NCBI RefSeq assembly: GCF_002847825.1
Contig: NZ_PKIZ01000006.1
Location: forward strand, 55,370 to 119,369
Direction: 5' to 3'
DNA: 64,000 bases
Source of the DNA: Kytococcus schroeteri
GTDB taxonomy: Bacteria > Actinomycetota > Actinomycetes > Actinomycetales > Dermatophilaceae
The notes below the pieces were generated by a model, which searched no databases, was not told the origin of the DNA, and worked only from the letters and a program-made list of their open reading frames with translations. Shown one piece after another: positions 9,387-38,551 of this stretch (position 1 is its first letter; every line of letters starts with the position of its first letter). The position numbers and the translations under genes were made by a program.

Positions 9387-9429
9387 GTGCTTCCTCCGTG
9401 GGATCGGGACCCGCCGCGCGGGAGTGCTG

Positions 9430-9448
9430 TTGAGGCAAGCCTAACCTG
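9430..9448. promoter_or_regulatory. DtxR/IdeR-type iron box between the SIP gene and the siderophore operon
   Basis: TTGAGGCAAGCCTAACCTG matches the TTAGGTTAGCCTAACCTAA consensus best in its right half (AGCCTAACCT). The core AGGCAAGCCT (9433-9442) recurs at the other two candidate iron boxes in this window. Confidence 0.75.
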
Positions 9449-9561
9449 TGTGGCAGGGTGCGGCCTCGGTCACGTGGCCGACCCGGCCATGCGGCCCGGT
9501 GTCCGCCCCACCCCGCCGGTCGGTGGCCGCACCGTCCCCCGCATCGACCAGGAAGGCACGC

Positions 9562-11025
9562 ATGTTCCTCACCTCCGCCTCCGGCCCGGCCTACGCCGAC
9601 GCCGTGCAGCAGGCCGCGCAGCTGGTGCAACGCCACCTGGGGCGCACCGACCGCCCCGCCACCGGTGGGCGTGCCGCCCCCGTGGACGAGGTGGTGGCGC
9701 GCGTCGAGGGGGTCGACCTCGACACCCCCGCCCCCGGCGGCCTGGCCGAGGTGCTGCAGGAGGTCGACGACCTGTTCGTGCGCGACAGCATCGCCTTCGC
9801 CGACCCCCGATACGTGGCGCACCTGAACTGCCCGGTGACCCTGAGCTCCGTGGCCGCCGACGTGGTGACCAGCGCGCTCAACCCGTCCGTGGACACCTGG
9901 GACCAGAGCGTGGGTGCCACCGCCATGGAGTGCCGCCTCGTGGAGTGGACCTGCGAGCGCCTCGGCCTGGTGGCCGGCGACGGCGTGTTCACCCCCGGGG
10001 GCACCCTGAGCAACCTGCAGGCCCTGGTGGTGGCCCGCGGCGAGGCGCTGGCGGCCGGGCACGACCTGGCCGACCTGCGCATCCTCACCAGTGCGCACAG
10101 CCACTTCAGCATCCTCAAGGCCGCGCGCCTGCTGGGTCTGGCGCCCGATGCCGTGGTGCCCGTGCCGCTGGCCGACCACCGCATCGACCCGGTCGCCCTG
10201 GCCGTTACCGTCGACCGGGTGCGCGCCGCCGGCCACGCCGTGATGGCGGTGGTGGCCACCGCCGGCACCACCGACCTGGGCGTCGTGGACCCCCTCGAGG
10301 AGGTGGGTCGCGTGTGCCGCCGGGCGGGGGTGTGGCTGCACGTCGACGCCGCGTACGGCGGGGGCCTGCTGGCCAGCCGTCGGCGCCGGGGGCTGCTGGC
10401 CGGCATCGAGCAGGCCGACTCGGTGACCGTGGACTTCCACAAGACCTTCTTCGTGCCCGTCTCGGCCAGCGCCGTGCTGGTGCGCGACCCCTCCACCCTG
10501 CGCCACGTGACCCACCACGCGGCGTACCTCAACCCGGCCACCGCCAGCGTGCCCAACCAGGTGGACAAGTCCCTGCAGACCACGCGGCGCTTCGACGCGC
10601 TCAAACTGTGGATGACGCTGCGCACCGATGGCGCGGACGCCCTGGGGGAGGCGTTCGACACCGCCATCGACAACGCGCACGCCGTGGCCCAGCTGCTGGA
10701 CGCCGACCCGGACTTCGAGATCGCGGCCGTGCCGCAGCTGTCCACCGTGGTGTTCCGGTACGCCCCGGCGCACCTGTCGGACTCCGCAGTGGACGTGCTG
10801 AACCCGCGCATCCGTGAGGAGCTCTTCGCCGACGGCGGGGCCATCGTGGCCGGGACGACCTTCGAGGGGCGGCCGTGGCTGAAGTTCACGGTGCTCAACC
10901 CGGCGAGCACGCCGGAGGTGCTGGCCGACGTGGTGGAGACCCTCCGCGAGACCGGGCGGATGCTCGCGCCGGTGGTGGGCGAGACCGCCGGAATGGCCCT
11001 CGAGCGCGAGGCGGCGGCCCGATGA
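9562..11025 (+). CDS. desA: PLP-dependent lysine (diamine-forming) decarboxylase of siderophore biosynthesis, DesA-like
   Basis: Group II pyridoxal-phosphate decarboxylase, 487 residues, predicted to convert lysine (or ornithine) to the diamine building block cadaverine (or putrescine). The PLP lysine is K294 in SVTVDFHKTFFVP; HVDAAYGG supplies the PLP-ring Asp, and the N-terminal CPVTLSSVAADV region is typical of the DesA/diaminobutyrate-decarboxylase group. ATG 9562 follows AGGAAGG. It is the first gene of the ATGA-coupled operon and lies downstream of the iron box. Substrate choice between lysine and ornithine is inferred from the hydroxamate context. Confidence 0.88.
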   Translation: MFLTSASGPAYADAVQQAAQLVQRHLGRTDRPATGGRAAPVDEVVARVEGVDLDTPAPGGLAEVLQEVDDLFVRDSIAFADPRYVAHLNCPVTLSSVAADVVTSALNPSVDTWDQSVGATAMECRLVEWTCERLGLVAGDGVFTPGGTLSNLQALVVARGEALAAGHDLADLRILTSAHSHFSILKAARLLGLAPDAVVPVPLADHRIDPVALAVTVDRVRAAGHAVMAVVATAGTTDLGVVDPLEEVGRVCRRAGVWLHVDAAYGGGLLASRRRRGLLAGIEQADSVTVDFHKTFFVPVSASAVLVRDPSTLRHVTHHAAYLNPATASVPNQVDKSLQTTRRFDALKLWMTLRTDGADALGEAFDTAIDNAHAVAQLLDADPDFEIAAVPQLSTVVFRYAPAHLSDSAVDVLNPRIREELFADGGAIVAGTTFEGRPWLKFTVLNPASTPEVLADVVETLRETGRMLAPVVGETAGMALEREAAAR

Positions 11026-12620
11026 GCAGCGCCCTGCGTTCCGCCCCGGTGGCCGGGTCCGCCCCGGCCGGTGCCCCCGTCCACGACGTGCTCGTCATCG
11101 GCGCCGGGCCGTTCGGCCTCGGGCTGGCGGCCCTGGCCGACGGCATCGCAGACGCCCCGCGCGGCGGTGCCGGCGCGCCGTCCGGCGGTGCAGCCCCGCT
11201 CGACCTGCGCGTGCTCGACGCGGCCCCCGGGTTCCGCTGGCACGGCGGCATGCTCATCGAGGGGGCGACGCTGCAGGTGCCCTTCCTGGCCGACCTCGTC
11301 ACCCTCGCCGACCCGACCAACCGGTGGAGCTTCCTCAACTGGCTGAAGCAGACCGGCCGGTTGTACCCCTTCTACATCCGCGAGGACTTCGCCCCGCTGC
11401 GCGCCGAGTACGACGCGTACTGCCGCTGGGTCGCCGAGGGCCTGCGCGCCCCGTCCGGGGAGCCGACCGTGGAGTTCGGCCGCGAGGTGGTGCGGGTGGT
11501 CTTCGACGAGGCCGCCGACGCGTTCGCGGTGACCTCCGTCGCGAGCCGTCGAGGCGCGGACGGCTGCCCCGTCGACCAGGGCACCGACTCCGCCACCGCG
11601 GCCGCCCCTCGCACCGCAGCCGTCGACGCCACCGAGCGCACGGACCTCACCCGACACCTCGTGCTCGCCACGGGTACCCGGCCGCGCGTGCCCGCACCGG
11701 CCCGGGCCCTCGTCGGCGAGGACGCCCCCGGGGCCGCGGCCCACCTGCACTCCTCGCAGTACATGCACCGTCGCGAGCACCTGGCCGGCGCCGAGCACGT
11801 CACCGTCATCGGCTCTGGGCAGTCGGCAGCCGAGATCTTCCTCGACCAGCTGGAGCGGCTCGACCTGGGCCGGCAGCACCTCAGCTGGCTCACGCGCTCG
11901 CCCCGCTTCTTCCCGATGGAGTACACCAAGCTCACCCTGGAAATGACCTCCCCGGAGTACACGCGCTACTTCCACGGCCTGCCCCAGTCCGAGCGCGACC
12001 GGCTGGGGCGCCAGAACCTGCCGCTGTACAAGGGCATCTCGGGCGACCTGGTGAACGCCATCCACGAGGCGCTGTACCGCCGCCGCGTGGAACGCGGTGC
12101 CGACCTGCCGGTGACCATGCGGACCGCCTGCGCCCTGGAGTCCAGCGAGCTCGTGGGCGACACCGCCCACCTGGCCTGGCGCCACACCGAGACCGGGACC
12201 CCCTTCACCACCACCTCGGACGCGACCGTCCTGGCCACCGGGTACGAGCACTGGGTGCCGGACTTCCTGGAGCCGGTGCGTGACCGCATCTCCTGGCTGC
12301 CCGACGGCCGGTACGACGTGGCGCTGGACTTCACCGTGGACGCCGCCCGCCGCATCCGTGTGCTCAACGGCGAGGAACACACGCACGGTCTGTCGGCGCC
12401 CGACCTGGGCATGGGCCCGTGGCGTGCCGCGCAGGTGCTCAACGACCTCACCGGCCGGGAGCTGTTCGCCGTCGAGCAGCAGATCGCCTTCCAGCAGTTC
12501 GGCGCGCCGGACCCGAGCGCTCCGTCCGCCGGGTCCGGCCTGGTCGCTGGGACCCAGGCCGCGTCCACCGATGTCACGCCCACCGATGCCGCCTCCGTCG
12601 AGGCAGGGGACCAGGCATGA
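11022..12620 (+). CDS. desB: FAD/NADPH-dependent diamine/lysine N-hydroxylase, DesB/IucD family
   Basis: Adds the N-hydroxyl group that later chelates iron. 532 residues with FAD site VIGAGPFGLGLA near residue 25, NADPH site VTVIGSGQSAAEIF, and the family ATGY motif in VLATGYEHWVPD. An Ala/Thr-rich insert near residues 185-205 and an extended, low-complexity C terminus (about 30 residues after QQFGAPDP) are longer than in relatives and probably disordered. The start overlaps the upstream stop (ATGA). Confidence 0.92.
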   Translation: MSSALRSAPVAGSAPAGAPVHDVLVIGAGPFGLGLAALADGIADAPRGGAGAPSGGAAPLDLRVLDAAPGFRWHGGMLIEGATLQVPFLADLVTLADPTNRWSFLNWLKQTGRLYPFYIREDFAPLRAEYDAYCRWVAEGLRAPSGEPTVEFGREVVRVVFDEAADAFAVTSVASRRGADGCPVDQGTDSATAAAPRTAAVDATERTDLTRHLVLATGTRPRVPAPARALVGEDAPGAAAHLHSSQYMHRREHLAGAEHVTVIGSGQSAAEIFLDQLERLDLGRQHLSWLTRSPRFFPMEYTKLTLEMTSPEYTRYFHGLPQSERDRLGRQNLPLYKGISGDLVNAIHEALYRRRVERGADLPVTMRTACALESSELVGDTAHLAWRHTETGTPFTTTSDATVLATGYEHWVPDFLEPVRDRISWLPDGRYDVALDFTVDAARRIRVLNGEEHTHGLSAPDLGMGPWRAAQVLNDLTGRELFAVEQQIAFQQFGAPDPSAPSAGSGLVAGTQAASTDVTPTDAASVEAGDQA

Positions 12621-15097
12621 GCCCCACCCGCATCGAGGGCCCCGTGGTCACCTGGACCGAGCTCACGGGCGAGCTCGTCGACACCCACGCGCCGCTGCTG
12701 CAGCGGTGGTTCGCCCACCCGCGCTCGCACTTCTGGGGCGCCTCCGAGCACACCGTGGAGCGCGTGGCCGCCGACTACGCCGCGGTGGACGCCGCCGACC
12801 ACCAGTGGGCCTGGCTGGGCACGGTGGACGGCGAGCCGATGGTGCTGGCCGAGACCTACGACCCCCGCCGCCACCCGCTGGCCGACCAGGCCACCGCCGT
12901 GGGCCTCGACCTGGTGGACGGCGACTGGGGCATGCACCTGCTCGTCGCCCCGCCCGCGCCCGACGCCACGGGTGAGCCCGCGCACCGGCCGGGGCTCACC
13001 GCATCGGCCATGACCGGTGTGGTGCGCGACCTGTGCCTGGGCCACCACGGTGCCCGCCGGGTGGTGGTGGAGCCCGACGTGGGCAACGACCGCATCCGTG
13101 CGCTCAACCGGCGCGTCGGGTTCCGCGAGCTGGGCGAGGTGACCTTCACCGACGGGGGCAACCCCAAGAGCGCGATGCTCTCGCTGCTGCGCCGCGAGGA
13201 GTTCGTGGACGTGCTCCCCGCCGACTCTCCCACCGCTCCCGCAGCGTCGTCCCGCCGGCCTGCGGCGGTCTCCCTCACCCCGCCGCACCTGGCCCCCGGC
13301 CCGATGCGGTGGGCCCACCGCCACGTGGCCGCCAAGGCACTCGGCGAGTTCGCCCACGAGCGCATCCTCGAGCCGACCGACCTCGGCGACGGCTGGTACG
13401 CGGTCACCTCCGATGACGGTGCCGCCACCTACCGTTACCGCGCCACCCGCCATGCGCTCGAGCACTGGGTGGTGGACCCCGACAGCATCGAGGTGGTGCG
13501 CGGTGAGGTGTCCGAGGAGGTCGACGCCCAGCGCCTGGTCACACGGGTGCGGCGGCGGGCCGGCATCCCCGACCACCTGCTGGGCACCTACCTGGAGGAG
13601 GTGGCCGCCACGCTGGCTGGCGCCGCGTGGAAGCGCGTGCACCGTGCCCTGCCGGCGGCCGACCTGGTGGGCGCCGACTTCCAGCAGGTGGAGGCCGCCA
13701 TGACCGAGGGCCACCCGGCGTTCGTGGCCAACAACGGACGCATCGGCTGGTCGCTGGCCGACCACGAGCGCTACGCCCCCGAGGCCGGGCAGCGTGTGGA
13801 GGTGCTGTGGCTGGCCGTGGCCCGCGGGGCCGCGCACCTGTCTCTTGGCGCCGGTCGCACCGAGGAGGCGCACTGGGCCGCGGAGTTCGACGCCCCCACG
13901 CGCGACCGCTTCGCGGCGACCCTGCGCGCCGCGGGCCACGACCCGGCCGACTACCTCTACCTGCCGGTGCACCCCTGGCAGTGGGAGCACAAGGTGGCCG
14001 TGACCTTCGCGCCCGAGGTGGCGCGGGGCGCCATCGTGCCGCTGGGGCCGGCCGACGGTTACCAGGCCCAGCAGTCCATCCGCACCTTCCTCAACACCGA
14101 CGCCCCCGAGCGGTGCTACGTGAAGACCGCGCTCTCGGTGCAGAACATGGGCTTCCTGCGCGGTCTCTCGCCGGCGTACATGCAGGTGACGCCGGCCATC
14201 AACGACTGGGTGCACACCGTGGTCTCGGGCGATCCGGCGCTCGCGGGGGACCCGTCCCACCCGGACCGCACCGACGCGCTGCCCACCGCCCGCGGCGGCT
14301 GCGGCCTGACCGTGCTCCGGGAGCTGGCCGCCATCGGCTACACCGGCGACGCCTACCACGAGGCCAACCTGTCCGGTCCCGCGCCGGCGCAGCGCAAGAT
14401 GCTCGCCGCGCTCTGGCGCGAGTCGCCGGTGCCGCAGCTGCAGCCGGGGGAGACCCTCGGCACGCTCGCCGCGGTGCTGCACACCGACCACGCCGGCCAC
14501 CACCTGGCCAGCGCGATGGTGCGCGCCTCCGGGCTGGAGCCGGCCGAGTGGGTGCGCCGCCTGCTGCACGCCTACCTGCGCCCCGTGGTGCACTGCCTGA
14601 CCGTTCATCGCCTGGCCTTCATGCCGCACACCGAGAACGTGATCATGGTGTGGCGCGACGGGTCCCCGGTGCGCGCGGTCTTCAAGGACATCGGCGAGGA
14701 GGTGGCCGTGTTCGCCGGTCCCCGGGCCGGGGGCGACCCGGCCGCCGTGCCCGAGGAGGCGCGCCGCATCGTGGTGGACGTGCCGGCGGACGAGGCCGCC
14801 CTGGCGGTGTTCACCGACGTGTACGACGGCGTGCTGCGCTTCCTGGCAGCGCGCCTGGAGGCCGACGGGCTGCTCACCGGCGAGGAGTTCTGGGGCCTGG
14901 TGCGCGAGTGCGTCCAGCAGCACCGGTCCGAGTTCCCCGAGCACCACTGGGTGGACCTGCTGGCCGGCGAGTTCGCGCACTCGTGCCTCAACCGGCTGCA
15001 GCTGCGCAACACCCTGCAGATGGTGGACCTGGCCGACCAGAGCTCCTCCCTGCTGTACTCCGGCACCCTCCCCAACCCCGCCGGGAGGCAGGCATGA
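12617..15097 (+). CDS. desD: Fusion: GNAT N-acyltransferase (DesC-like) plus IucA/IucC NIS siderophore synthetase (DesD-like)
   Basis: 826 residues. The first ~200 form a GNAT acyltransferase of the siderophore type (HFWGASEHTVERV, MHLLVAPP, RVVVEPDVGNDRIRALNRRVGF), predicted to acylate the hydroxylamine with succinyl- or acetyl-CoA. From about residue 225 an NRPS-independent siderophore synthetase follows, with the ATP-binding SIRT at about residue 487, HPWQWEHK, KTALSVQNMGF (K503) and HTENVIMVW. In Streptomyces these are two proteins, DesC and DesD; here they are one chain, which would couple acylation with oligomerisation and macrocyclisation. ATGA overlaps occur at both ends. Confidence 0.93.
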   Translation: MSPTRIEGPVVTWTELTGELVDTHAPLLQRWFAHPRSHFWGASEHTVERVAADYAAVDAADHQWAWLGTVDGEPMVLAETYDPRRHPLADQATAVGLDLVDGDWGMHLLVAPPAPDATGEPAHRPGLTASAMTGVVRDLCLGHHGARRVVVEPDVGNDRIRALNRRVGFRELGEVTFTDGGNPKSAMLSLLRREEFVDVLPADSPTAPAASSRRPAAVSLTPPHLAPGPMRWAHRHVAAKALGEFAHERILEPTDLGDGWYAVTSDDGAATYRYRATRHALEHWVVDPDSIEVVRGEVSEEVDAQRLVTRVRRRAGIPDHLLGTYLEEVAATLAGAAWKRVHRALPAADLVGADFQQVEAAMTEGHPAFVANNGRIGWSLADHERYAPEAGQRVEVLWLAVARGAAHLSLGAGRTEEAHWAAEFDAPTRDRFAATLRAAGHDPADYLYLPVHPWQWEHKVAVTFAPEVARGAIVPLGPADGYQAQQSIRTFLNTDAPERCYVKTALSVQNMGFLRGLSPAYMQVTPAINDWVHTVVSGDPALAGDPSHPDRTDALPTARGGCGLTVLRELAAIGYTGDAYHEANLSGPAPAQRKMLAALWRESPVPQLQPGETLGTLAAVLHTDHAGHHLASAMVRASGLEPAEWVRRLLHAYLRPVVHCLTVHRLAFMPHTENVIMVWRDGSPVRAVFKDIGEEVAVFAGPRAGGDPAAVPEEARRIVVDVPADEAALAVFTDVYDGVLRFLAARLEADGLLTGEEFWGLVRECVQQHRSEFPEHHWVDLLAGEFAHSCLNRLQLRNTLQMVDLADQSSSLLYSGTLPNPAGRQA

Positions 15098-24368: not shown

Positions 24369-25259
24369 ATGAAGATCGCGTTCCTGGGACTCGGAAACAT
24401 GGGTGGCCCGATGGCCGCCAACCTCGTCAAGGCCGGCCACGAGGTCACGGGCTTCGACCCCGTGCCCGCCGCCCGTGAGACCGCGCAGGGCAACGGCGTC
24501 ACCGTGGCCGAGAGCGGCGCGCAGGCCGTGGCCGACGCCGAGGTCGTCATCACGATGCTGCCCAACGGCCAGCTGGTGCTGGACTCCTACGGCGAGATCG
24601 TCCCGGCTGTGACCGGTCAGGACGTCCTGTTCATCGACTCCTCCACCATCGACGTGGAGTCTGCCCGCAAGGCCGCCGACATGGTGCGCGAGGCGGGCCA
24701 CTCCAGCATCGACGCCCCGGTCTCCGGCGGTGTGGTGGGTTCCGAGGCCGGCACGCTCACCTTCATGGTCGGCGGCACCGACGAGGCCTTCTCCCGTGCC
24801 GAGCCGGTCCTGCAGGCCATGGGCCGCAAGATCGTGCACTGCGGCGGTGCGGGCAATGGCCAGGCCGCCAAGATCTGCAACAACATGCTGCTGGGTGTGC
24901 AGATGATCGCCGTCTCCGAGGCCTTCGTGCTCGGCGAGAAGCTCGGCCTGGACCCGCAGGCCTTCTTCGATGTCGCCTCCACCAGCTCCGGCCGCTGCTG
25001 GGCCCTGGACACCAACTGCCCGGTGCCGGGCCCGGTCGAGGGATCGCCGGCCAACCGCGACTTCGAGGGCGGCTTCGCCTCGGGCCTCATGCTCAAGGAC
25101 CTGAACCTCGCGCAGGACGCCTCCGAGCTGGCCGGCGTGGACACCGCCTTCGGTCGAGCGGCCCGCGACGCCTACGAGCGCTTCGTCGACATCGACGGTC
25201 CCCGGCGCGACTTCGGGGCCGTCATCACCGCCATCGAGAGCGACACGCTCAACGGCTGA
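24369..25259 (+). CDS. mmsB: 3-hydroxyisobutyrate dehydrogenase
   Basis: NAD-dependent oxidoreductase of valine breakdown (3-hydroxyisobutyrate to methylmalonate semialdehyde), 296 residues. The Rossmann start FLGLGNMGGPMAANLVKAGH is diagnostic; the substrate motif APVSGGVVGSEAGTL and the catalytic lysine K168 in GNGQAAKICNNMLL are present, as is the C-terminal FGRAARDAYERF region. A hairpin terminator follows. Valine catabolism feeds propionyl-CoA, which links this gene to mutAB functionally, though not by position. Confidence 0.93.
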   Translation: MKIAFLGLGNMGGPMAANLVKAGHEVTGFDPVPAARETAQGNGVTVAESGAQAVADAEVVITMLPNGQLVLDSYGEIVPAVTGQDVLFIDSSTIDVESARKAADMVREAGHSSIDAPVSGGVVGSEAGTLTFMVGGTDEAFSRAEPVLQAMGRKIVHCGGAGNGQAAKICNNMLLGVQMIAVSEAFVLGEKLGLDPQAFFDVASTSSGRCWALDTNCPVPGPVEGSPANRDFEGGFASGLMLKDLNLAQDASELAGVDTAFGRAARDAYERFVDIDGPRRDFGAVITAIESDTLNG

Positions 25260-25262
25260 CCG

Positions 25263-25291
25263 CACGGCACCGCCGCCCCGGCGGTGCCGTG
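25263..25291 (+). terminator. Hairpin terminator after mmsB
   Basis: CACGGCACCGCC and GGCGGTGCCGTG pair perfectly (12 bp) around GCCCC. It begins 3 bases after the mmsB stop; no U-tract, as is common in high-GC actinobacteria. Confidence 0.75.
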
Positions 25292-25348
25292 GCGCCGGAC
25301 CGGAGGGCCTCCACCCCGCCGGGGGTACCGGGCGGAGCGGGGCCCTCC

Positions 25349-25354
25349 TACCCT
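25349..25354 (+). promoter_or_regulatory. -10 TACCCT of a leaderless promoter
   Basis: TACCCT is followed by 6 bases and then the GTG start codon of the CAAX protease gene, the same spacing as at mmsB, the AAA ATPase and the acyl-CoA dehydrogenase. It supports GTG 25361 as the start. Confidence 0.6.
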
Positions 25355-25360
25355 GTGCGG

Positions 25361-26500
25361 GTGAATCAGCAGCCCGGCCAGCCCCATCCGCAGCACCCCC
25401 AGGGTCCGCCGCAGAACCCTTACGCCCCGCAGCCGCCGTACGGGCAGTACGCCCACCCTGCCCCGACGGGGTACGCACCGGGGCCGTACGCCCCGCCCCC
25501 TTACGCGCCGGGGCCGTACGGCCCGCCGGCCCCCGTCTCGTCGGTGCGTCCGGACGCCGAGTTCCACGAGCTCACCCGTGGCCCCCGCCGTGCCTGGTGG
25601 CGCCCCGTCGTGGCCCTGCTCCTGTGGATCCCGGTCGGCATCGTGGTGGCACTCGTCGCCATCGTGGCCATGCTCGCCCCGATGCTGTCCATCGAGAGCC
25701 AGCGGCAGGGGTTCGAGCAGGGTGGTGACGGCATGCCGGAGGTCTTCCACCCGCTGACCTTCCTGGGCATGAACGCCGGCCTGGCCGTCCTCGTGCCGGC
25801 GGCCGTCGGCGTGCTCGCCCTGGCCTACTGGATGCGGCCGGGCTTCGCCTCCTCGGTGGCGGGGCGCTTCCGCTGGGGCTGGGCGCTGCGTGTGCTCGTG
25901 GTGCTCACGCCGTGGTGGGTGCTCTACCTGCTCGGGACGGCCGCGCTGGCCGGGGAGAGCTTCACGCCGCACCCGCACCGGTACTTCTGGTGGATGCTGC
26001 TCGTGGTGGTGCTGACCACGCCCCTGCAGGCGGCCGGCGAGGAGTACCTGTTCCGCGGCTTCGTGATGCAGTGGTTCGGCAGCTGGATCCCGTGGACGTG
26101 GCTGGCCCTGGGGCTGTCCACGGTCACCTCGGTGAGTCTCTTCGCCCTCGCGCACGGCTCGTTGGACCCCTGGGTGCTCGCCGACCTGGGCCTGTTCGCC
26201 CTCGTGGCCCTGGTGATGATCGTGCGCACCGGCGGCATGGAGGCGGCCGTGGTCATGCACTCGGTCAACAACGTGACGCTCATGGTCATCTCGCTGTTCT
26301 TCGGCGGTTTCGAGGACGGCTTCGTGGGCGGCGACACCACCTCCACCCCGGCGGTCCTGCTCATGAGCGTGCTGCTGCAGGGCGTGGGCCTGGCGCTGGT
26401 GGAGTGGCAGTGGCGCCGCAGCGGGCTGGGCAACCGCACCGCCGCCGACCTGCAGGAGCTGCTGCACCCCCGCGACCGCGTGGGGGCCGCCGCCCGCTGA
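25361..26500 (+). CDS. CPBP (CAAX/Abi) family intramembrane metalloprotease
   Basis: 379 residues. A Pro/Tyr/Gly-rich cytoplasmic N terminus with repeated PYAP/PPYG units (residues 1-65) leads into about eight membrane segments. The glutamate pair E227-E228 in AAGEEYLFRGFVM, then FALAHG and VVMHSVNN, supply the catalytic/metal residues of the family. Such proteins are linked to peptide maturation or self-immunity, but no partner gene sits nearby. The leaderless TACCCT promoter supports the start, and a very strong hairpin lies downstream. Confidence 0.88.
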   Translation: MNQQPGQPHPQHPQGPPQNPYAPQPPYGQYAHPAPTGYAPGPYAPPPYAPGPYGPPAPVSSVRPDAEFHELTRGPRRAWWRPVVALLLWIPVGIVVALVAIVAMLAPMLSIESQRQGFEQGGDGMPEVFHPLTFLGMNAGLAVLVPAAVGVLALAYWMRPGFASSVAGRFRWGWALRVLVVLTPWWVLYLLGTAALAGESFTPHPHRYFWWMLLVVVLTTPLQAAGEEYLFRGFVMQWFGSWIPWTWLALGLSTVTSVSLFALAHGSLDPWVLADLGLFALVALVMIVRTGGMEAAVVMHSVNNVTLMVISLFFGGFEDGFVGGDTTSTPAVLLMSVLLQGVGLALVEWQWRRSGLGNRTAADLQELLHPRDRVGAAAR

Positions 26501-26521
26501 CCACGCACGGCCGCTGGCCGG

Positions 26522-26573
26522 CACGCACTGAAGGGGCCGGAGCGCATCAGCGCTCCGGCCCCTTCAGTGCGTG
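26522..26573. terminator. 24-bp perfect hairpin terminator, probably bidirectional
   Basis: Arms 26522-26545 and 26550-26573 pair perfectly around an ATCA loop (core GGGGCCGGAGCGC). It ends transcription of the CAAX protease gene and, on the minus strand, would also end the candidate small RNA that starts near 26637. Confidence 0.88.
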
Positions 26574-26637
26574 GAGGGCGGGGAACCACCACCCGGTCCC
26601 GTCCTCCGGTACCGCTCGGGCCCCTGCGCCCTGCGAT
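26522..26637 (-). ncRNA. Candidate iron-regulated small RNA (about 116 nt)
   Basis: On the minus strand an iron box overlaps a promoter-like pair, -35 TTGCCT (26672-26667) and -10 TACTGT (26649-26644), spaced exactly 17 bp. Transcription from about 26637 would meet the 24-bp hairpin at 26573-26522, giving a short RNA with no convincing open frame. No gene lies downstream of the box in either direction to explain it otherwise. This is inference from site arrangement; a decayed regulatory relic is the alternative. Confidence 0.35.
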
Positions 26638-26643
26638 GCCTGA

Positions 26644-26677
26644 ACAGTACCCAACTCGCTAAGGCAAGGCAAGCCTT
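26644..26677 (-). promoter_or_regulatory. Iron box overlapping a minus-strand promoter
   Basis: AAGGCAAGCCTT (26666-26677) is a perfect 5-bp inverted repeat around AA and shares the core AGGCAAGCCT with the box at 9430. TTGCCT and TACTGT, 17 bp apart, form a good sigma-A-like promoter on the minus strand, with the box covering the -35. Confidence 0.55.
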
Positions 26678-26750
26678 ACTCGACGATGCGGTGAGAGGTG
26701 AGCTGTGGGCCGGTCGGGCGGGCTGGCGGGGCTGCGGGAGGTGGTGGTCC

Positions 26751-26840
26751 GGAGGGGTGTCCTATCGGCCGATAGGTCGACCGAATCCCAGTCACCCGCC
26801 TGCGTATCGGTCGACCTATCACGCGATAGGACACCCCTCC
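26751..26840. repeat. Palindromic repeat family 2, copy B (90 bp with 16-bp terminal inverted repeats)
   Basis: Ends are GGAGGGGTGTCCTATC and its exact complement GATAGGACACCCCTCC. Inside are CCTATCGGCCGATAGG, CCTATCACGCGATAGG and GGTCGACCGA ... TCGGTCGACC around a conserved interior shared with copy A at 7846. It lies 33 bases from the end of the siderophore ABC ATPase gene. The gap 26501-26873 otherwise holds only the hairpin, the iron-box promoter and this element. Confidence 0.85.
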
Positions 26841-26873
26841 CACGAGGGCCGGGGTCGCCTCACGGCCACGTGG

Positions 26874-27673
<800 letters not shown>

Positions 27674-27677
<4 letters not shown>

Positions 27678-28666
27678 GAGGACATCCACCTCCGAGAGGT
27701 CAGGAGCAGGCCGAGCAGGAAGGGGCCGCCGGCCAGGCCGGTCACGATGCCCACGGGCAGGTTGCCGCCGGGGGCCAGGTAGGCGCCGGTGTAGTCGGCC
27801 GCCAGGAAGATGCAGGCGCCCACCAGCCCGGCGCCCAGCACCGTGGTGCGCCCCTGGTTGAGGGCGCGCGCGATGGGGCCGGCCAGGAAGGCGAGGAAGG
27901 CCACCGGGCCGCACACGGCGGTGGCGGCGGCCACGAGCAGCACGGCCAGCAGCATTGCCAGGCCACGCAGGCGGGTGGGGTGCTCGCCGAGGCCGGTGGC
28001 GAGGTCGTCGCCCAGCTCCAGCACGCCCAGGCGCGCGGTGGTGGCCACGAGCAGCGGGAGCAGCACCGCGACCAGCAGCGCCAGCACCCCGATCTCGCGC
28101 CACAGCACGTCGTTGACGCTGCCGGAGAGCCACACCACCGCGTCCTGCGCCTTGTGCAGCTCCGTGCGCAGCAGCAGCCAGTGGATCCCCGCCATGAGGG
28201 CGGCCGAGAGCCCGATGCCGGTGAGCACCATGGTGTGCGCGGCGGCATCGGCCGGGCCGCGCCGTGAGAGCAGCACCAGCAGGCCGGTCACCGCCAGCCC
28301 CCCGCCGGCTGCGGAGAGGGCCACGGCCGGGCCGGTCCAGTCCAGCACCACGAGGGCGAAGAGCGCCCCGAAGCTGGCGCCCACGCTCACGCCCACCACG
28401 TCCGGGCTGGCCAGCGGGTTGCGCAGCACCGACTGGAAGGTGGCGCCGGCGGCCCCGAAGGCCAGCCCGGCCACCACGGCGGCCGCCGCGCGGGGCAGCT
28501 TGGACTCCATCACCAGGAAGCTGGCCACGGGGATGTTCTCCCCGCCCAGGATGCGCAGGAAGTCCGGCAGGGTGACGGTGTAGTCGCCCAGCAGCACGCG
28601 GGCGGCGAACAGCGCCAGCAGCAGCACGGCCAGGCCACCCAGCACGATGCCGTGGCGGCGCCCCAC
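27674..28666 (-). CDS. Ferric-siderophore ABC transporter permease (FecCD family), frame broken at its 5' end
   Basis: About 330 residues from GTG 28666, with nine to ten membrane segments and family motifs LPRAAAAVVAGLAFGAAGATFQ, RNPLASPDVVGVSVGASFG, GPVAFLAFLAGPIAR and the C-terminal PVGIVTGLAGGPFL. The expected coupled start, ATG 28752 overlapping the previous stop, is in a different frame: adding one G (or removing two) at the G8 tract (28729-28736) would join MSATTRG to AERAGAPAPQSAP and on into the permease. Either the gene is phase-variable or frameshifted, or translation begins at GTG 28666. Confidence 0.85.
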
Positions 28667-28728
28667 CGCGCGCAGCGTCCGCCGCGGGCTCGGGGCGGAC
28701 TGCGGTGCCGGCGCCCCCGCGCGCTCGG

Positions 28729-28736
28729 CCCCCCCC
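28729..28736. other. Homopolymer tract (G8 on the coding strand) at the frame break of the siderophore permease
   Basis: Eight C on the plus strand, read as eight G in the mRNA, five codons after the coupled ATG. The upstream frame (MSATTRGG) and the permease frame differ here by one position, exactly what slippage in a homopolymer, or a sequencing indel, would produce. Confidence 0.8.
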
Positions 28737-28748
28737 GCGTCGTGGCAC

Positions 28749-29762
28749 TCATGTGTGCACCCTTCGACGGGCCACCAGCAGCACCAGCGCGGGTGCCCCG
28801 ATGACGGCGGTCATGATCCCCACGGGCACCTCCGTGGGCGGCAGCACCACGCGGCCCAGGGTGTCGGCGGCCACCACGAGGGCCGCGCCGAACACCGCGC
28901 TGCCCAGCATCACGCGGCGCTCGTCGGGGCCGGTCAGCGAGCGCACCAGGTGCGGCACCACGAGCCCCACGAACGCGATCGGCCCCGCCAGCGCCGTGCC
29001 GGCGGCGCACAGCATCACCGCGCCGGCGGCCACCACCAGCCGCACCAGCCCCACGCGCTGCCCCAGGCCGCGCGCCAGGTCGTCGCCCAGCGCCAGGGTG
29101 TTGAGCCACCCGCCGGCCGGCAGGGTGAGCACGAACCCGGCCACCAGCACCGGCGCCACGGAGGCCACCAGGCCCAGGTCGCGCCCGGCCACGGTGCCCA
29201 CCTGCCACACCCGGAACACGTCGAGCGCGGCCAGGTCCACCACCATCAGCCCCGAGCCGAGCGACCCGGCGGTGGCCGCGAAGGCCGCCCCGGCGATGGT
29301 GAGCGTCACCGGCTGCGCCCCGCCCGGTCCAGCCGCGGCGATGCCGTAGACCACCACGGCGGCCAGCGCCGCCCCGGCCAGGGCGAACCACACGTACTGG
29401 CCCTGCTCGTGCAGTACCCCGGTGGTGAGCCCGAGCACCACGGCCAGCGCCGCGCCGGAGTTGACGCCGAGGATGCCGGGGTCGGCCAGGGGGTTGCGGG
29501 TGAGGGCCTGCATCGCGGCCCCGGCGCACCCCATCGCGGCACCGACGAGCACGCCGAGCACGGTGCGGTCCACGCGCGCCTCGACGATGCCGGCCGCCTC
29601 GCCGCCGCCCCCGCGCAGCGCCGACCAGACGGCATCGACGGGCACCATCGTGGCACCCACCGCCAGCGAGGCGAGGACGGCGACGGCCACGGCCACCAGC
29701 CCGCCCCCCAGCAGGAGGGCGAGCCGGCGGCCGTGGCCGTGCGGTGCGAGGTGCGAGGTCAC
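28749..29762 (-). CDS. Ferric-siderophore ABC transporter permease (FecCD family)
   Basis: 337 residues. The first inner-membrane permease of the importer: DRTVLGVLVGAAMGCAGAAM, RNPLADPGILGVNSGAALAVV, GPIAFVGLVVPHLVR and PTEVPVGIMTAVIGAPALV are the conserved BtuC/FhuB blocks. The GTG start (VRRVTSHLAP begins slightly upstream; GTG 29762 chosen) overlaps the stop of the binding-protein gene, and its own stop overlaps the ATG of the next permease, so the operon is tightly coupled. Confidence 0.94.
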   Translation of the reverse strand: MTSHLAPHGHGRRLALLLGGGLVAVAVAVLASLAVGATMVPVDAVWSALRGGGGEAAGIVEARVDRTVLGVLVGAAMGCAGAAMQALTRNPLADPGILGVNSGAALAVVLGLTTGVLHEQGQYVWFALAGAALAAVVVYGIAAAGPGGAQPVTLTIAGAAFAATAGSLGSGLMVVDLAALDVFRVWQVGTVAGRDLGLVASVAPVLVAGFVLTLPAGGWLNTLALGDDLARGLGQRVGLVRLVVAAGAVMLCAAGTALAGPIAFVGLVVPHLVRSLTGPDERRVMLGSAVFGAALVVAADTLGRVVLPPTEVPVGIMTAVIGAPALVLLVARRRVHT

Positions 29763-30859
29763 TCGGCGGACGACGCCCCGGCCGAGGAGCCCTCGCTCGA
29801 GCCCTTGGCCTTCTCGGCGGCCCTGGCCAGCTCGGGCACGAACTTCTCCAGCGCGGTCGGGATGCTCAGCGGGGTGGGGCTGGGCATCGGGAAGGAGGCC
29901 ACCGGGTCGGTGGCTGCCACGTACGAGCCGCGCTGGAAGGCCGGGATGGCGGCCAGCTGCTTGTTGCCGGTGACGGCCTTCTCGGTGCCGGCCTCGTCGG
30001 CGTAGAACACCACCACGTCGGCGTCCACGGTCCTGGCCTTCTCCGCGGAGACGTCCACCTGGAAGGTCTTCTCGTCCTTGCTCAGCTCGCCGATGAGGGG
30101 CGCGTTGACCATGCCCAGCTCCTCGAGCATGCGCGGGCGGTTGTCGGTGGTGGTGTACAGCGCGAACGTGGACAGGTCGGTGGGGGAGAAGGAGGCCCAC
30201 GCCACGGTGGCGCCCTTGAGCGCCGGGTACTTCGCGGCGGTCTCCTCCACCTGCTTCTCGGTGTCGGCGATGACCTTCTCGGCCTCGTCCGAGTTGCCCA
30301 GGGCCTGGCCGGTCATCTTCGTGGAGTCCTGCCAGCTGGTGCCCCAGGTCACCTCGGGGTAGGCCACCACGGGGGCGATCTTGCTGAGCTTCTCGTACTC
30401 CTCGGGCGTCACGCCGGAGTTGGTGGCCAGGATGACGTCGGGCTGCAGCTTGACGATCTCGTCCACCGGGGCGCCGTCGGCGTCGGAGTAGCGGGTGATC
30501 TCGGCCTTCGGGTCGAGCTCGTTGACCTTCTTGTCGAACCAGTCGGTGGACTTCTTGGCATTGCCGCCCCAGGTGATCTGCGGGGCGCCGGTGGGCACGA
30601 CACCCAGAGCGGCCACCACGTCGTGGTCGGACCAGCCGAGGGTGGCCACCTTGGTGGGCTGCTGCTCGATGGTGGTCTCGCCCAGGGCGTGCTTGACGGT
30701 CACCGGGAAGGCGGCGTCCCCGCCCTCGGAACCGCTGCTCTGACTGGAGCTGCCGGAGGCGCCCTCGGAGGGCTTCTCCTCACCGGCGGGACCGGTGGAG
30801 CAGGCGGTCAGGGTCAGGCTGGCGGCGGCCAGGACGGCGCCGGTACGCACGATGCGCAT
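29759..30859 (-). CDS. Siderophore-binding lipoprotein (periplasmic-binding-protein class III)
   Basis: 366 residues. The signal peptide ends in the lipobox LTAC at residues 17-20, so Cys20 is lipid-anchored outside the membrane. A Ser/Gly linker follows, then the FepB/FhuD-like fold: TKVATLGWSDHDVVAALG, VDEIVKLQPDVILATNSG and the C-terminal VASFPMPSPTPLSIP. It captures the ferric siderophore for the permease pair. The C terminus is Ser/Ala-rich and probably disordered. RBS GAGGAG precedes the ATG, and an iron box lies about 45 bases upstream. Confidence 0.94.
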   Translation of the reverse strand: MRIVRTGAVLAAASLTLTACSTGPAGEEKPSEGASGSSSQSSGSEGGDAAFPVTVKHALGETTIEQQPTKVATLGWSDHDVVAALGVVPTGAPQITWGGNAKKSTDWFDKKVNELDPKAEITRYSDADGAPVDEIVKLQPDVILATNSGVTPEEYEKLSKIAPVVAYPEVTWGTSWQDSTKMTGQALGNSDEAEKVIADTEKQVEETAAKYPALKGATVAWASFSPTDLSTFALYTTTDNRPRMLEELGMVNAPLIGELSKDEKTFQVDVSAEKARTVDADVVVFYADEAGTEKAVTGNKQLAAIPAFQRGSYVAATDPVASFPMPSPTPLSIPTALEKFVPELARAAEKAKGSSEGSSAGASSAE

Positions 30860-30899
30860 GGGTCTCCTCGGGATCTACCGACGCGCCACCTCGATGCGA

Positions 30900-30919
30900 G
30901 GGGAAGGCAAACCTGACCC
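30900..30919. promoter_or_regulatory. Iron box upstream of the siderophore importer operon
   Basis: The GGAAGGCAAACCTGACCCT region contains AGGCAAACCT (30905-30914), one base different from the core shared by the boxes at 9433 and 26667. It is placed in front of the binding-protein gene on the minus strand. Confidence 0.6.
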
Positions 30920-30945
30920 TTGCGATGCGGTGGGCGCCGGCGCCC

Positions 30946-31083
30946 GAACTCCGCACCGGTGCTGATCTCGCCCTGCCACCCGCGCCGAACTCCGCACCGG
31001 TGCCGAATTCGCCCTGCCACCCGCGCCCAATTCCGCACCGGTGCTGAACTCGACAGTCGAGTTCAGCACCGGTGCGGAATTGG
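30946..31083. repeat. Palindromic repeat family 1, tandem cluster ending in a 57-nt perfect palindrome
   Basis: Two 41-bp direct repeats (30946-30986, 30987-31027) begin GAACTCCGCACCGGTGC and end CCCTGCCACCCGCGCC. A third unit folds back on itself: arms 31027-31054 and 31056-31083 are perfectly complementary (28 bp) around a single A. On the minus strand the hairpin follows the MFS gene stop and could act as its terminator, but the family also occurs inside mutB and before ung. Confidence 0.9.
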
Positions 31084-31105
31084 TGGTGGGCCCCCGCCGG
31101 GCGCC

Positions 31106-32401
31106 TCAGCCGCGCGACACCTCCGGCAGCCGCAGCCCGAGTGCCGATCCCAGCACGCCCAGCGCCGCCAGGAAGGCCAGCGGCCACCAGGGCGTCACTG
31201 TGGCCAGGGCGCCGGCCACCGCGCCGGCGGCCAGCAGCACCACCCCGATGATCGTGTTGCCCGCTGCGGTGTAGGCGGTGCGGGTGTCGCCCGCGGCCAT
31301 GTCCACCAGGTAGGTCTTGCGGCCGGTGCGCACCCCGGTGTGGGCCAGCGTCACCAGGAAGTAGGCCACCGGCAGCACCCACGCCATCGGCCCCGGGGGC
31401 AGCACGGCGGCCAGCAGCAGCACCACCAGCACCACCGCGGTGGCCGCCCCGGAGGCCACGGCCATGAGGCGCCGGCTGGAGCGGTCTGCCGCGCGCCCCA
31501 CCAGCCGCCCGCCCACGAGCGAGGCCAGGCCGGTGCCCAGCACGAAGGGAGCCAGCCCGGTCAGGGGAGTGGTGCCCTGCGTGGCGGCCGCGGCCACCAG
31601 GAAGGTGGGTGTCAGGGCGGTCACCAGCAGCAGGGCGCGAACGGTGACGAAGGCCCGGAAGTCCGGCGCATCGCGCCACAGCGCCCACGGGCTCACCGGG
31701 GTGTCGGCCTTCCGGGTGTCACCGGCCGGCTCCTCCACCCGGTTCCACAGCACCGCCGTGCCCACGAACAGCAGCGCCGCGCCGGCCGCCAGCCAGGCCA
31801 GGTGTTGCGGCGAGGTGCCCTCGCCGGCCAGGCGCAGCCCCACGCCCACCGTGAGCGCCAGGGCGCCGGCCACCACGGTGGCGGTGCCGGTGAGCTGCCC
31901 GCGCTGCCCCTTGGGCACGGTGCGCCCCTGGGTGTCCTTGCTCGCCAGCGAGGTCAGGGCGCGCCCGCTGGCCAGTACCGCCAGACCGGCCAGCACGCCG
32001 AGCCCGGCGCCCAGCCCGGTGAGCAGGGCCAGTGCCAGCGCGATGCCGGCCGCGCCCACCGCCTGCGCGAGGCCCCCGACGGCCACCAGCCCGTGGCGCC
32101 GCCGGTGCGAGACCACCCACGGCGTGAGCGCGGCCTGCGGCAGCATCGACCCGGACTCGCGCACCGGCACGAGCAGGCCGACGGTCCACCCCGGCGCACC
32201 GAGGCCGGTGAGGGCCCAGGTGAGCACGGTGGGGGCGTGCACCAGCTGGTCGGCGGCGTTGAGCAGCGAGGTGGCCCCCAGGATGCGCAGGCCGTTGCGG
32301 GGCAGGGCCTCGGCGGCGGTGGGCTCCAGCTGCTCGGTGCCGGCGTCGGGGTCCTCCACCACGGCGTCCCACGCCCGGCTGAACTCGCGGTCACTCACCA
32401 T
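31106..32401 (-). CDS. Major facilitator superfamily transporter
   Basis: 431 residues with about twelve membrane segments after a 40-residue acidic N terminus. The loop motif RLVGRAADRSSRRLMA and the N-terminal half AALTPWVVSHRRRHGLV fit drug-exporter-like MFS proteins, but no substrate can be assigned. Its first 11 bases overlap the end of the TetR gene, so both share a transcript from the divergent promoter at 33006-33098. Being downstream of a TetR repressor, it is probably an inducible efflux pump (inference). Confidence 0.86.
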   Translation of the reverse strand: MVSDREFSRAWDAVVEDPDAGTEQLEPTAAEALPRNGLRILGATSLLNAADQLVHAPTVLTWALTGLGAPGWTVGLLVPVRESGSMLPQAALTPWVVSHRRRHGLVAVGGLAQAVGAAGIALALALLTGLGAGLGVLAGLAVLASGRALTSLASKDTQGRTVPKGQRGQLTGTATVVAGALALTVGVGLRLAGEGTSPQHLAWLAAGAALLFVGTAVLWNRVEEPAGDTRKADTPVSPWALWRDAPDFRAFVTVRALLLVTALTPTFLVAAAATQGTTPLTGLAPFVLGTGLASLVGGRLVGRAADRSSRRLMAVASGAATAVVLVVLLLAAVLPPGPMAWVLPVAYFLVTLAHTGVRTGRKTYLVDMAAGDTRTAYTAAGNTIIGVVLLAAGAVAGALATVTPWWPLAFLAALGVLGSALGLRLPEVSRG

Positions 32402-35554: not shown

Positions 35555-35800
35555 GCTGGTCCTCCCCGGCACCGCCACGCGCCCCCGAGCGGGCGCCTAG
35601 GGCATCGCGGGGGAGGGGCAAGAGGGAACCCGGTGCGAGTCCGGGACTGCCCCGCAGCGGTATTCGGGAACGACCGCCGTCACACAGCACTGGGTGCAGC
35701 CAGCACCTGGGAAGCGACGGCCAGTAGGCACCCGTCCGGCACCTGCCGGACGCCTCGGTGACGAGGACGCCCGTGAGTCCGAAGACCTGCCAGCGCCCGG
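35555..35800 (+). promoter_or_regulatory. Cobalamin (B12) riboswitch controlling nrdAB
   Basis: The leader contains the conserved core GAGGGAACCCGGTGCGAGTC (35622-35641), then CCGGGACTGCCCCGCAGCGG, and the B12-box-like AGTCCGAAGACCTGCC at 35776-35791. Spacing is normal for a cobalamin aptamer. In Streptomyces a B12 riboswitch turns off class Ia RNR when B12 is available for the class II enzyme; the same logic is expected here. The stretch 35460-35950 contains the promoter, this element and a leader but no gene. Confidence 0.93.
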
Positions 35801-35950: not shown

Positions 35951-38551
35951 ATGACCACCCACACCGCCGGCCCCGGCACCCCCGCCCAGCCCACCCTGGA
36001 CGGCACCCCCACCACCTCCCGCCACCCGATGCGCGTCGTCAAGCGCAGCGGTGAGCACGAGGAGGTCGACCTGGCCAAGATCGTCACCGCCATCGAGCGC
36101 TGCACCGACGGCCTGCCCGAGGTAGACCCCATGCGCGTGGCCACCCGCACCATCGCCGGCCTCTACGACGGCGCCACCACCGCCGAACTGGACAAGCTCG
36201 CCATCGCCACCGCTGCGGAGATGACCGCCACCGAGCCGCAGTACTCCCGCCTGGCCGGACGGCTGCTGGCCGGCACCATCGACAAGGAGGTGCGCGGCCA
36301 GGGCATCGCCACCTTCAGCCAGGCCGTGCGTACCGGCCACGAGCAGGGCCTCATCGGCGACGTGACCGCCGCCTTCGTCGCCGAGCACGCCAGCCTCCTG
36401 GACGATGCCGTGCACCGCGCTCAAGCCGCCCACGCCGACTGGCGCTTCGACTACTTCGGCCTGCGCACCGTGTACGACCGCTACCTGCTGCGCCACCCCC
36501 TCACGCGGGCGGTCATCGAGTCGCCCCAGTACTGGCTGATGCGCGTGGCCGCCGGGCTCTCGCGCACCGCGCCGGAGGCGGTGGAGTTCTACGAGCTGCT
36601 CTCCTCCCTGGCCTACCTGCCCAGCTCGCCGACCCTGTTCAACTCCGGCACCCGGCACACGCAGATGTCCAGCTGCTACCTCATCGACTCCCCGCGCGAC
36701 GACCTCGACTCCATCTACGAGCGCTACCACCAGGTGGCCAAGCTCTCGAAGTTCGCCGGCGGCATCGGCCTGGCCTTCTCCCGCATCCGCTCCCGCGGGG
36801 CGCTGATCCGCGGCACCAACGGCCACTCCAACGGCATCGTGCCGTGGCTGCGCACGTTGGACTCCTCGGTGGCGGCGGTCAACCAGGGCGGCCGGCGCAA
36901 GGGTGCGGCGTGCATCTACCTCGAGCCGTGGCACCCGGACGTCGAGGAGTTCCTCGAGCTGCGCGACAACACCGGCGAGGACGCCCGCCGCACGCACAAC
37001 CTCAACCTGGCCCACTGGATCCCCGACGAGTTCATGCGCCGTGTGGAGGCTGATGGGGAGTGGTCCCTCATCGACCCCGATGCCGTGCCGGAGCTGCCCG
37101 ACCTGTGGGGCCCGGCCTTCGACGCCGCCTACCGCGCCGCCGAGGAGCGCGGTGACGTGGTGCGCACCGTCTCGGCGCGCTACCTCTACGGACGCATGAT
37201 GCGGACCCTGGCCCAGACCGGCCAGGGGTGGATGACCTTCAAGGACGCCTCCAACCGGGCGTGCAACCAGACCAGCGACGACCAGACGCCGCGGGTGGCC
37301 GCCGACGGCACCGTCCAGCCGGCCCCGGTGGTGCACCTGAGCAACCTGTGCACCGAGATCATCGAGGTCACCAGCAACGACGAGACCGCCGTGTGCAACC
37401 TGGGGTCGGTGAACCTCGCCCAGCACCTCCGATGGAGTGACGGCACCACGGGTGCCCGCCCGCAGGACGCCGCCGCACGCGCGGTCGGCGTGGACGAGGA
37501 GAAGCTGCGCGCCACGGTGCGGCTGGCGGTCACCTACCTGGACCGCGTCATCGACATCAACTACTACCCCTCCGAGCAGGCGGCGGCGTCCAACCCGCGC
37601 TGGCGCCCCATCGGCCTGGGCTCGATGGGTTTGCAGGACGTGTTCTTCGCCCTGCGGATGCCGTTCGACTCGCCGGAGGCGCGCGAGCTGAGCACCCGGA
37701 TCGCCGAGGAGATCCAGCTCTCCGCGCTGGAACGCTCGGCCGAGCTCGCCGAGCAGCTCGGGGCACACCCGAGCTTCGACGAGACGCGGGCTGCGAAGGG
37801 CCAGCTGCAGCACGACCTGTACGGGGTGACCCCCACGCAGACCGAGCGGTGGGCGGCGGTGCGCGCCCGCATCGCCGAGCACGGCCTGCGCAACTCGCTG
37901 ATGATCGCCATCGCGCCCACGGCGACGATCGCCAGCATCGCCGGCTGCTACGAGTGCACCGAGCCGCAGGTGAGCAACCTGTTCAAGCGCGAGACGCTCT
38001 CGGGGGAGTTCATGCAGGTGAACACCGCGCTGGTGGGCGAGCTGAAGTCCCTGGGTCTGTGGACCGACACGGTGCGCGAGAAGCTCAAGGCCGACAACGG
38101 GTCGGTGGCCGGCATCGCCGACCTGCCGGAGGAGGCCCGGCGGCTGTTCCGCACCGCGTGGGAGCTGCCGCAGAAGGCGCTCATCGAGATGGCCGCGGCC
38201 CGCCAGGCGTACGTGGACCAGAGCCAGAGCCTGAACCTGTTCATGGAGAGCCCCCACATCGGCAAGCTGAGCTCGATGTACCTGTACGCGTGGAAGGCCG
38301 GGCTGAAGACCACGTACTACCTGCGCAGCCGGCCGGCCACCCGCATCCAGCAGGCCACCGTGTCCGGTGTGCGTGCCGGCGCGAGCTGGGGCGCCGCGAC
38401 GGGTGCCCCGGGCGCCAGCCAGCCCACGGCCCCTGGTGCGCCGGGCGTGGTCGGCGGGCTCACCGCATCGGAGCCGGTGCGGACCTTCACCGATGCCGAG
38501 GCGCTCGCCTGCTCGCTGGAGAACCCCGAGGCCTGTGAGGCCTGCGAGTAA
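35951..38551 (+). CDS. nrdA: Class I (Ia-type) ribonucleoside-diphosphate reductase, alpha subunit
   Basis: 866 residues; reduces NDPs to dNDPs. An N-terminal ATP-cone (RVVKRSGEHEEVDLAKIVTAI through VRGQG, about residues 28-118) gives allosteric activity control. The barrel carries PSSPTLFNSGTRHTQMSSCY (active-site Cys), NLCTEI with the radical Cys in the NLC region, and YECTEPQVSNLF. The C-terminal CEACE supplies the thioredoxin-reducible pair, C862 and C865. RBS AGGAGAGGG precedes the ATG. Expression is under the upstream B12 riboswitch, and nrdB follows after a strong hairpin. Confidence 0.95.
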   Translation: MTTHTAGPGTPAQPTLDGTPTTSRHPMRVVKRSGEHEEVDLAKIVTAIERCTDGLPEVDPMRVATRTIAGLYDGATTAELDKLAIATAAEMTATEPQYSRLAGRLLAGTIDKEVRGQGIATFSQAVRTGHEQGLIGDVTAAFVAEHASLLDDAVHRAQAAHADWRFDYFGLRTVYDRYLLRHPLTRAVIESPQYWLMRVAAGLSRTAPEAVEFYELLSSLAYLPSSPTLFNSGTRHTQMSSCYLIDSPRDDLDSIYERYHQVAKLSKFAGGIGLAFSRIRSRGALIRGTNGHSNGIVPWLRTLDSSVAAVNQGGRRKGAACIYLEPWHPDVEEFLELRDNTGEDARRTHNLNLAHWIPDEFMRRVEADGEWSLIDPDAVPELPDLWGPAFDAAYRAAEERGDVVRTVSARYLYGRMMRTLAQTGQGWMTFKDASNRACNQTSDDQTPRVAADGTVQPAPVVHLSNLCTEIIEVTSNDETAVCNLGSVNLAQHLRWSDGTTGARPQDAAARAVGVDEEKLRATVRLAVTYLDRVIDINYYPSEQAAASNPRWRPIGLGSMGLQDVFFALRMPFDSPEARELSTRIAEEIQLSALERSAELAEQLGAHPSFDETRAAKGQLQHDLYGVTPTQTERWAAVRARIAEHGLRNSLMIAIAPTATIASIAGCYECTEPQVSNLFKRETLSGEFMQVNTALVGELKSLGLWTDTVREKLKADNGSVAGIADLPEEARRLFRTAWELPQKALIEMAAARQAYVDQSQSLNLFMESPHIGKLSSMYLYAWKAGLKTTYYLRSRPATRIQQATVSGVRAGASWGAATGAPGASQPTAPGAPGVVGGLTASEPVRTFTDAEALACSLENPEACEACE

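Follow-up and report, generated by a model that had tools for sequence, protein, structure and literature searches.

A candidate iron-repressed small RNA conserved in structure between two Kytococcus species

The intergenic stretch 26501-26873 of the Kytococcus schroeteri DNA analyzed here (64,000 nucleotides with a G+C content of 74%; hereafter, the window) probably encodes, to judge from its sequence, an iron-repressed and likely trans-acting small RNA (sRNA) of about 116 nt with predicted seeds and iron control. The predicted RNA lies on the minus strand (26522..26637), its start at A26637 being placed from the -10 element and its end at a hairpin that finishes at 26522. The stretch is bounded on one side by a convergent plus-strand gene for a CPBP/Rce1-like protease (25289..26500), found at this position in each of the three Kytococcus-type loci that were compared. 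On the other side is a minus-strand siderophore importer operon comprising a binding protein (29759-30859, with PF01497 relatives, the nearest named ones being from Kytococcus at 69-71% identity), two permease-like genes named from their translations, and, as the final gene, an ABC ATPase (26874..27692) that ends at 26874, upstream of the RNA and on the same strand. Between the importer and the iron box described below is a large imperfect inverted repeat (26751..26840, with 41-nt arms, 85%), which contains CCTATC...GATAGG palindromes and is probably the importer terminator, perhaps more. Upstream of the binding-protein gene, at 30940-31085, a short repeat of the GCACCGGTGC type recurs several times (TTCCGCACCGGTGC and variants).

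The DtxR/IdeR-type iron box, TAAGGCAAGGCAAGCCTTA (26660..26678), overlaps the -35 element of the predicted promoter, fits the 19-bp DtxR/IdeR pattern with 0 mismatches, and is the best box found in the window. This pattern, which was built on the DtxR/IdeR consensus and drawn up once the site had been seen, has 3 matches with ≤3 mismatches in the whole window versus 0.03 expected; two of them are the 26660-26678 site read on either strand, and the third is in the importer promoter (30898, 3 mismatches). An earlier, sequence-only reading of the region had pointed to a core shared with the siderophore operon, and the 10-bp core AGGCAAGCCT is indeed present in the siderophore operon promoter at 9433; taken alone, this 10-mer is at chance level (3 matches with ≤1 mismatch versus 2.75 expected). 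The site at 9433 falls within a hydroxamate-type siderophore cluster (8658-15097), in which Pfam identifies SIP, PLP decarboxylase, lysine/ornithine monooxygenase, and IucA/IucC synthetase domains. The minus-strand promoter that the same reading had placed over the box can likewise be read from the letters, as a -35 element TTGCCT (26667..26672) and a -10 element TACTGT (26644..26649) separated by 17 bp. A sigma-70 scan returned zero sites in 25000-31500, missing this promoter because TACTGT matches 3 of the 6 consensus letters and is thus weak by consensus.

The RNA itself is predicted to begin with a nearly invariant stem-loop 1 region (26608..26640, minus strand), with the loop GCAGGG at 26622-26627. 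This is followed by stem-loop 2 (26573..26607, minus strand), whose stem carries five double compensatory changes from one species to the other and whose conserved tip CCGGGUGGUGGU (26585-26596, minus strand; loop at 26589-26593) is a putative seed. At the end is a terminator-like hairpin (26522..26573), previously described as perfect and about 65 nt downstream of the promoter; its arms, 26522-26545 and 26550-26573, are 100% complementary over 24 bp around a 4-nt loop. There is no T-run behind this hairpin, and hence a terminator scan lists none there; it could serve both the sRNA and the convergent CPBP gene. When folded separately, the window RNA and its counterpart from a second Kytococcus genome (G085) give three matching stem-loops, i.e., stem-loop 1 (loop GCAGGG), stem-loop 2 (loop GGUGG, plus a bulge of 2 nt), and the terminator hairpin, with z scores of -7.4 and -6.0, respectively, when the terminator is included. 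Without the terminator, the folds only mildly beat shuffles (window, z of -1.65, 34 of 500 as stable; G085, z of -2.19, 15 of 500). The fold of the opposite strand is just as good or better (window, z of -2.94, 3 of 500; G085, z of -2.28, 7 of 500), so the strand call rests on the promoter and on a conserved block that lies mainly on one side of the box.

Comparison within Kytococcus covered two genomes, G085 and G086, and the element was found in two sequences only, those of the window and G085. In G085, the matching element is situated 3' of the CPBP gene, and its box, TTAGGCTTGCCTCACCTAA (like that of the window, a site predicted from the consensus), also overlaps the -35, which is an identical TTGCCT; a 17-bp spacer, a TATGGT -10, and an A at +7 from the -10 follow. 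The two elements share the 10-bp box core and the start region, as well as the -35 and the 17-bp spacer. The RNA core aligns by blastn at 86% over 57 nt (E of 3.2e-10), and the adjoining CPBP proteins are ~60% identical between the two species. Within the core, GGCATCGCA.GGGCGCAGGGGCCC is identical except for one inserted base and is followed by two changed bases and then by GCGGT, again common to both species; further, the 12-mer CCGGGTGGTGGT is identical within a surrounding stem that has changed. In the alignment overall, with the structure used for pair counts taken from one of the two sequences, 9 of 47 pairs are changed on both sides versus 4.5 in shuffles (0 of 500 shuffles as high), and 95.5% of the cells are paired, as against 39-44% after sliding partners. 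Among the 13 pairs of stem-loop 2, 5 are changed on both sides, 5 are invariant, 1 has a change on a single side, and 2 do not pair in G085; the terminator has 23 pairs, 4 of them changed on both sides and 6 in gaps.

What has been kept across the two species is a predicted noncoding structured RNA, with compensatory changes and no common open reading frame (ORF). The box had been described as an orphan, with no ORF between it and the hairpin, and this stands, in that no reading frame is conserved between the window and G085: frames from GTG or ATG codons inside the RNA stay open past it in both species, with no common peptide. The proposed sRNA passes the comparative test that the sequence-only reading had set for it: in G085, the box, promoter, 17-bp spacer, start region, and RNA core are all kept, and the terminator hairpin retains its fold on a shorter stem of partly, though not wholly, different sequence. 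The box, promoter spacing, hairpin, conservation, and compensatory changes can be read directly in the two sequences. An element that retains its box, promoter geometry, start, stem pairing, and G-rich tip beside a changing neighbor and a partly changing terminator looks like a trans-acting iron-repressed sRNA.

A tie to the siderophore importer, which the sequence-only reading had also drawn, is not needed. Around the G085 element, the importer is absent within the 16 kb fetched, and a homoserine dehydrogenase gene is found on the far side. Conversely, G086 has an importer without a detectable RNA: the importer stop and the CPBP stop are ~46 bp apart, a DNA search of this genome for the element gave a best match with an E of 0.19, and the whole-RNA model gave a best E of 0.095, with no box, while a model of the promoter and stem-loops 1 and 2 gave no match. 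Since each is found without the other, we reject a dependence of the RNA on the importer. By position, an ancestor may have carried both between the 31106-type gene and the CPBP gene.

We searched 186 family genomes with two models. The model of the whole RNA, which includes G085 by construction, hit 18 of these at an E of ≤1 per genome (G085, 1.5e-11), the best after G085 being 0.0014 (G112), 0.0027 and 0.0053 (G014), and 0.0055 (G184); across its 23 loci, a box at ≤3 mismatches is present only in the G085 element (L128). The model of the promoter and stem-loops 1 and 2 had matches in 11 genomes (G085, 1.6e-24; next best, 0.063); across its 12 loci, besides G085, L209 has a 3-mismatch site off the expected upstream place, and the others have 4 mismatches or none. 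Neither model yielded a convincing relative among the other family genomes, in searches that scored at most the best 19-20 candidates per genome under stricter filters and can therefore miss diverged relatives. A seed-plus-box pattern was matched in 1 of 396 order genomes (a sample not listing G085), at locus L151 of G313, which we rejected as a relative: there (L151:1500-1600), a perfect iron box, TTAGGTCAGCCTCACCTAA, directly precedes a short ORF rich in Lys and Cys (MGVKKAKKKCCKDK...), whose product may be a small protein regulated by iron. Orphan iron boxes are rare in other genera: a survey with a crude gene caller of 60 boxes (≤2 mismatches) from 55 of 80 importer loci, 59 of which were judged, called a single orphan, itself doubtful, with an ATG 112 nt downstream. 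Rfam scans of the RNA gave 8 and 1 subthreshold matches, 8 of the 9 to microRNA models and 1 to ar35. The only match above threshold in the whole window is a cobalamin riboswitch (RF00174, 66 bits) elsewhere than the RNA locus, at 35623-35788, before a large predicted gene (35951-38551). The open-access literature yielded no report of a Kytococcus sRNA and no DtxR-controlled sRNA outside mycobacteria, MrsI being the sole actinobacterial DtxR/IdeR-linked one found there.

Several other explanations have to be set against a trans-acting sRNA. One is cis action, whereby a transcript without targets runs from the iron box head-on into the CPBP gene and lowers its expression in iron starvation. The CPBP gene is indeed convergent and adjacent in both species with the element, and the hairpin lies between the two transcripts; however, viewed from CPBP, the best conserved parts (the 5' stem-loop and the G-rich tip) are on the far side of the hairpin, and the compensatory change of stem-loop 2 is more than interference by itself would require, making this explanation unlikely. 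Alternatively, an iron-regulated gene once served by the box could have been lost and its promoter left behind; the conserved block would then be either a remnant or some structured element unrelated to it. The lack of the element in G086, where so little separates the importer and CPBP stops, and the rearranged locus would suit such a relic, but one would not expect it to retain the box, the spacer, the start, and a 12-nt loop without any change while CPBP identity has dropped to ~60%, and the stem still pairs despite five double changes. We consider a relic quite improbable.

It is highly improbable that the transcript encodes a small protein, a possibility suggested by GTG codons in the conserved GGGTGGTGGT of both species, by a GGAGG ~10 nt upstream in the window, and by the iron box before a short ORF in the distant G313. 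The frames from those codons are open beyond the terminator and yield no common peptide, G085 is without GGAGG at that place, and the changes follow stem and loop. Just as little probability attaches to the G085 box serving the divergent homoserine dehydrogenase gene with the downstream block being incidental: the box is palindromic and that gene (start at L114:7035, ~145 bp from the box) reads away from it, but the window, with no predicted gene reading away on that side, nevertheless keeps the box, promoter, and block, and conservation past the box on that side is slight.

For a trans-acting sRNA, we infer a repressor, a transcript, an iron response, a seed role, and targets along the following lines. 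When iron is plentiful, a DtxR/IdeR-family repressor would presumably occupy the box and, with it, the -35. As iron falls, it would leave, and a minus-strand RNA of two stem-loops plus terminator would be made, beginning near A26637 and running through the hairpin at 26522-26573; the siderophore operon and the importer, whose promoters have related boxes (9433 and 30898), would be expressed at the same time. The unchanged G-rich tip, and perhaps the loop GCAGGG too, would most likely act as seeds for CACC-rich stretches in mRNA leaders, and this pairing would lower the translation of iron-using or iron-storing proteins.

By analogy, such an RNA would work like MrsI, IsrR, or RyhB, a likeness that is proposed for function rather than for family. 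RyhB, PrrF, and FsrA are controlled by Fur and come from other phyla. They use various chaperones, and Rfam scans gave no match of the Kytococcus RNA to any of the three. They are described as iron-repressed trans-acting RNAs of the iron-sparing response, and the staphylococcal IsrR as an iron-repressed RNA with stem-loops and a terminator, in which single-stranded loop motifs are conserved and the 3' parts less so (PMC9410917). The Kytococcus RNA resembles IsrR, so described, in that its loop motifs are kept and its terminator is poorly conserved; however, IsrR is Fur-controlled and has C-rich motifs in AT-rich genomes, whereas the Kytococcus RNA has a G-rich tip in its G+C-rich setting and would pair with CACC-type stretches. 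MrsI (ncRv11846) of mycobacteria is ~100-106 nt long, has an IdeR site in its promoter, is induced by iron starvation, has a six-nucleotide seed, and represses bfrA, hypF, and fprA (PMC8628891, PMC7029489). As described, it is similar to the predicted Kytococcus RNA in length and in the IdeR-type promoter site, and it differs in its gene neighborhood, between blaI and Rv1847. From what these sources say of MrsI and IsrR, we infer iron sparing by the Kytococcus RNA (PMC8628891, PMC7029489, PMC9410917). The Streptomyces s-SodF is another metal-responsive actinobacterial sRNA (PMC3919588), but it is processed from the sodF 3' untranslated region under nickel/Nur control, whereas the Kytococcus RNA gene has its own promoter and iron box.

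To look for targets, we counted complements of the 12-nt seed (≤1 mismatch): G085 has 250 versus 133 for the reversed pattern, G086, which has no detectable RNA, has 236 versus 224, and the window has 11, of which the RNA gene itself accounts for one, versus 1.7 expected. These counts carry no codon-bias control. Among the 14 exact G085 seed sites listed, with the RNA's own omitted, 12 are in predicted frames, 10 of these antisense, and the other 2 are at L154 and L166. When 316 leaders from 400 kb of G085 were scanned, iron genes did not stand out (sufC, rank 3; aconitase, rank 62; ferritin, rank 111). For ferritin, a first duplex energy looked huge, yet the above rank was all that remained once accessibility was counted. 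The 58-nt gap before sufC in G085 (L187:15133-15190) contains ACCACCCACCACCCC, complementary to the conserved RNA tip; in G086 and G184 the gaps before sufC are shorter (~30 nt) and without ACCACCCACCACCCC, and G025 is without the double site. We treat sufC as a target lead only, not a significant one, because 9 of the 316 leaders score -11 or better and it was noticed after the fact. An SDH locus was also found, and a scan of 46 window genes gave no iron-gene target lead.

A more far-reaching proposal, which we regard as speculative and rather doubtful, is that of a new RNA family: a DtxR-controlled Kytococcus iron-sparing sRNA, independent of MrsI, with a G-rich apical seed that pairs with CACC-rich leaders; these would include the one before sufC in the Fe-S assembly operon, whose double site is missing from the compared species without the RNA. 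The RNA sequence has so far been seen in two loci, and the kind to which it appears to belong, the DtxR/IdeR-repressed sRNAs, is already known. It seems that iron-sparing RNAs have evolved repeatedly and are not homologous to one another. If the reading as a trans-acting, iron-repressed RNA is correct, this would be a second DtxR/IdeR-linked sRNA, in Micrococcales, and the DtxR/IdeR regulon, like that of Fur, would have acquired an RNA arm in one more lineage. With a sister species that does not have it, RNA gain, RNA loss, and target turnover would become directly testable.
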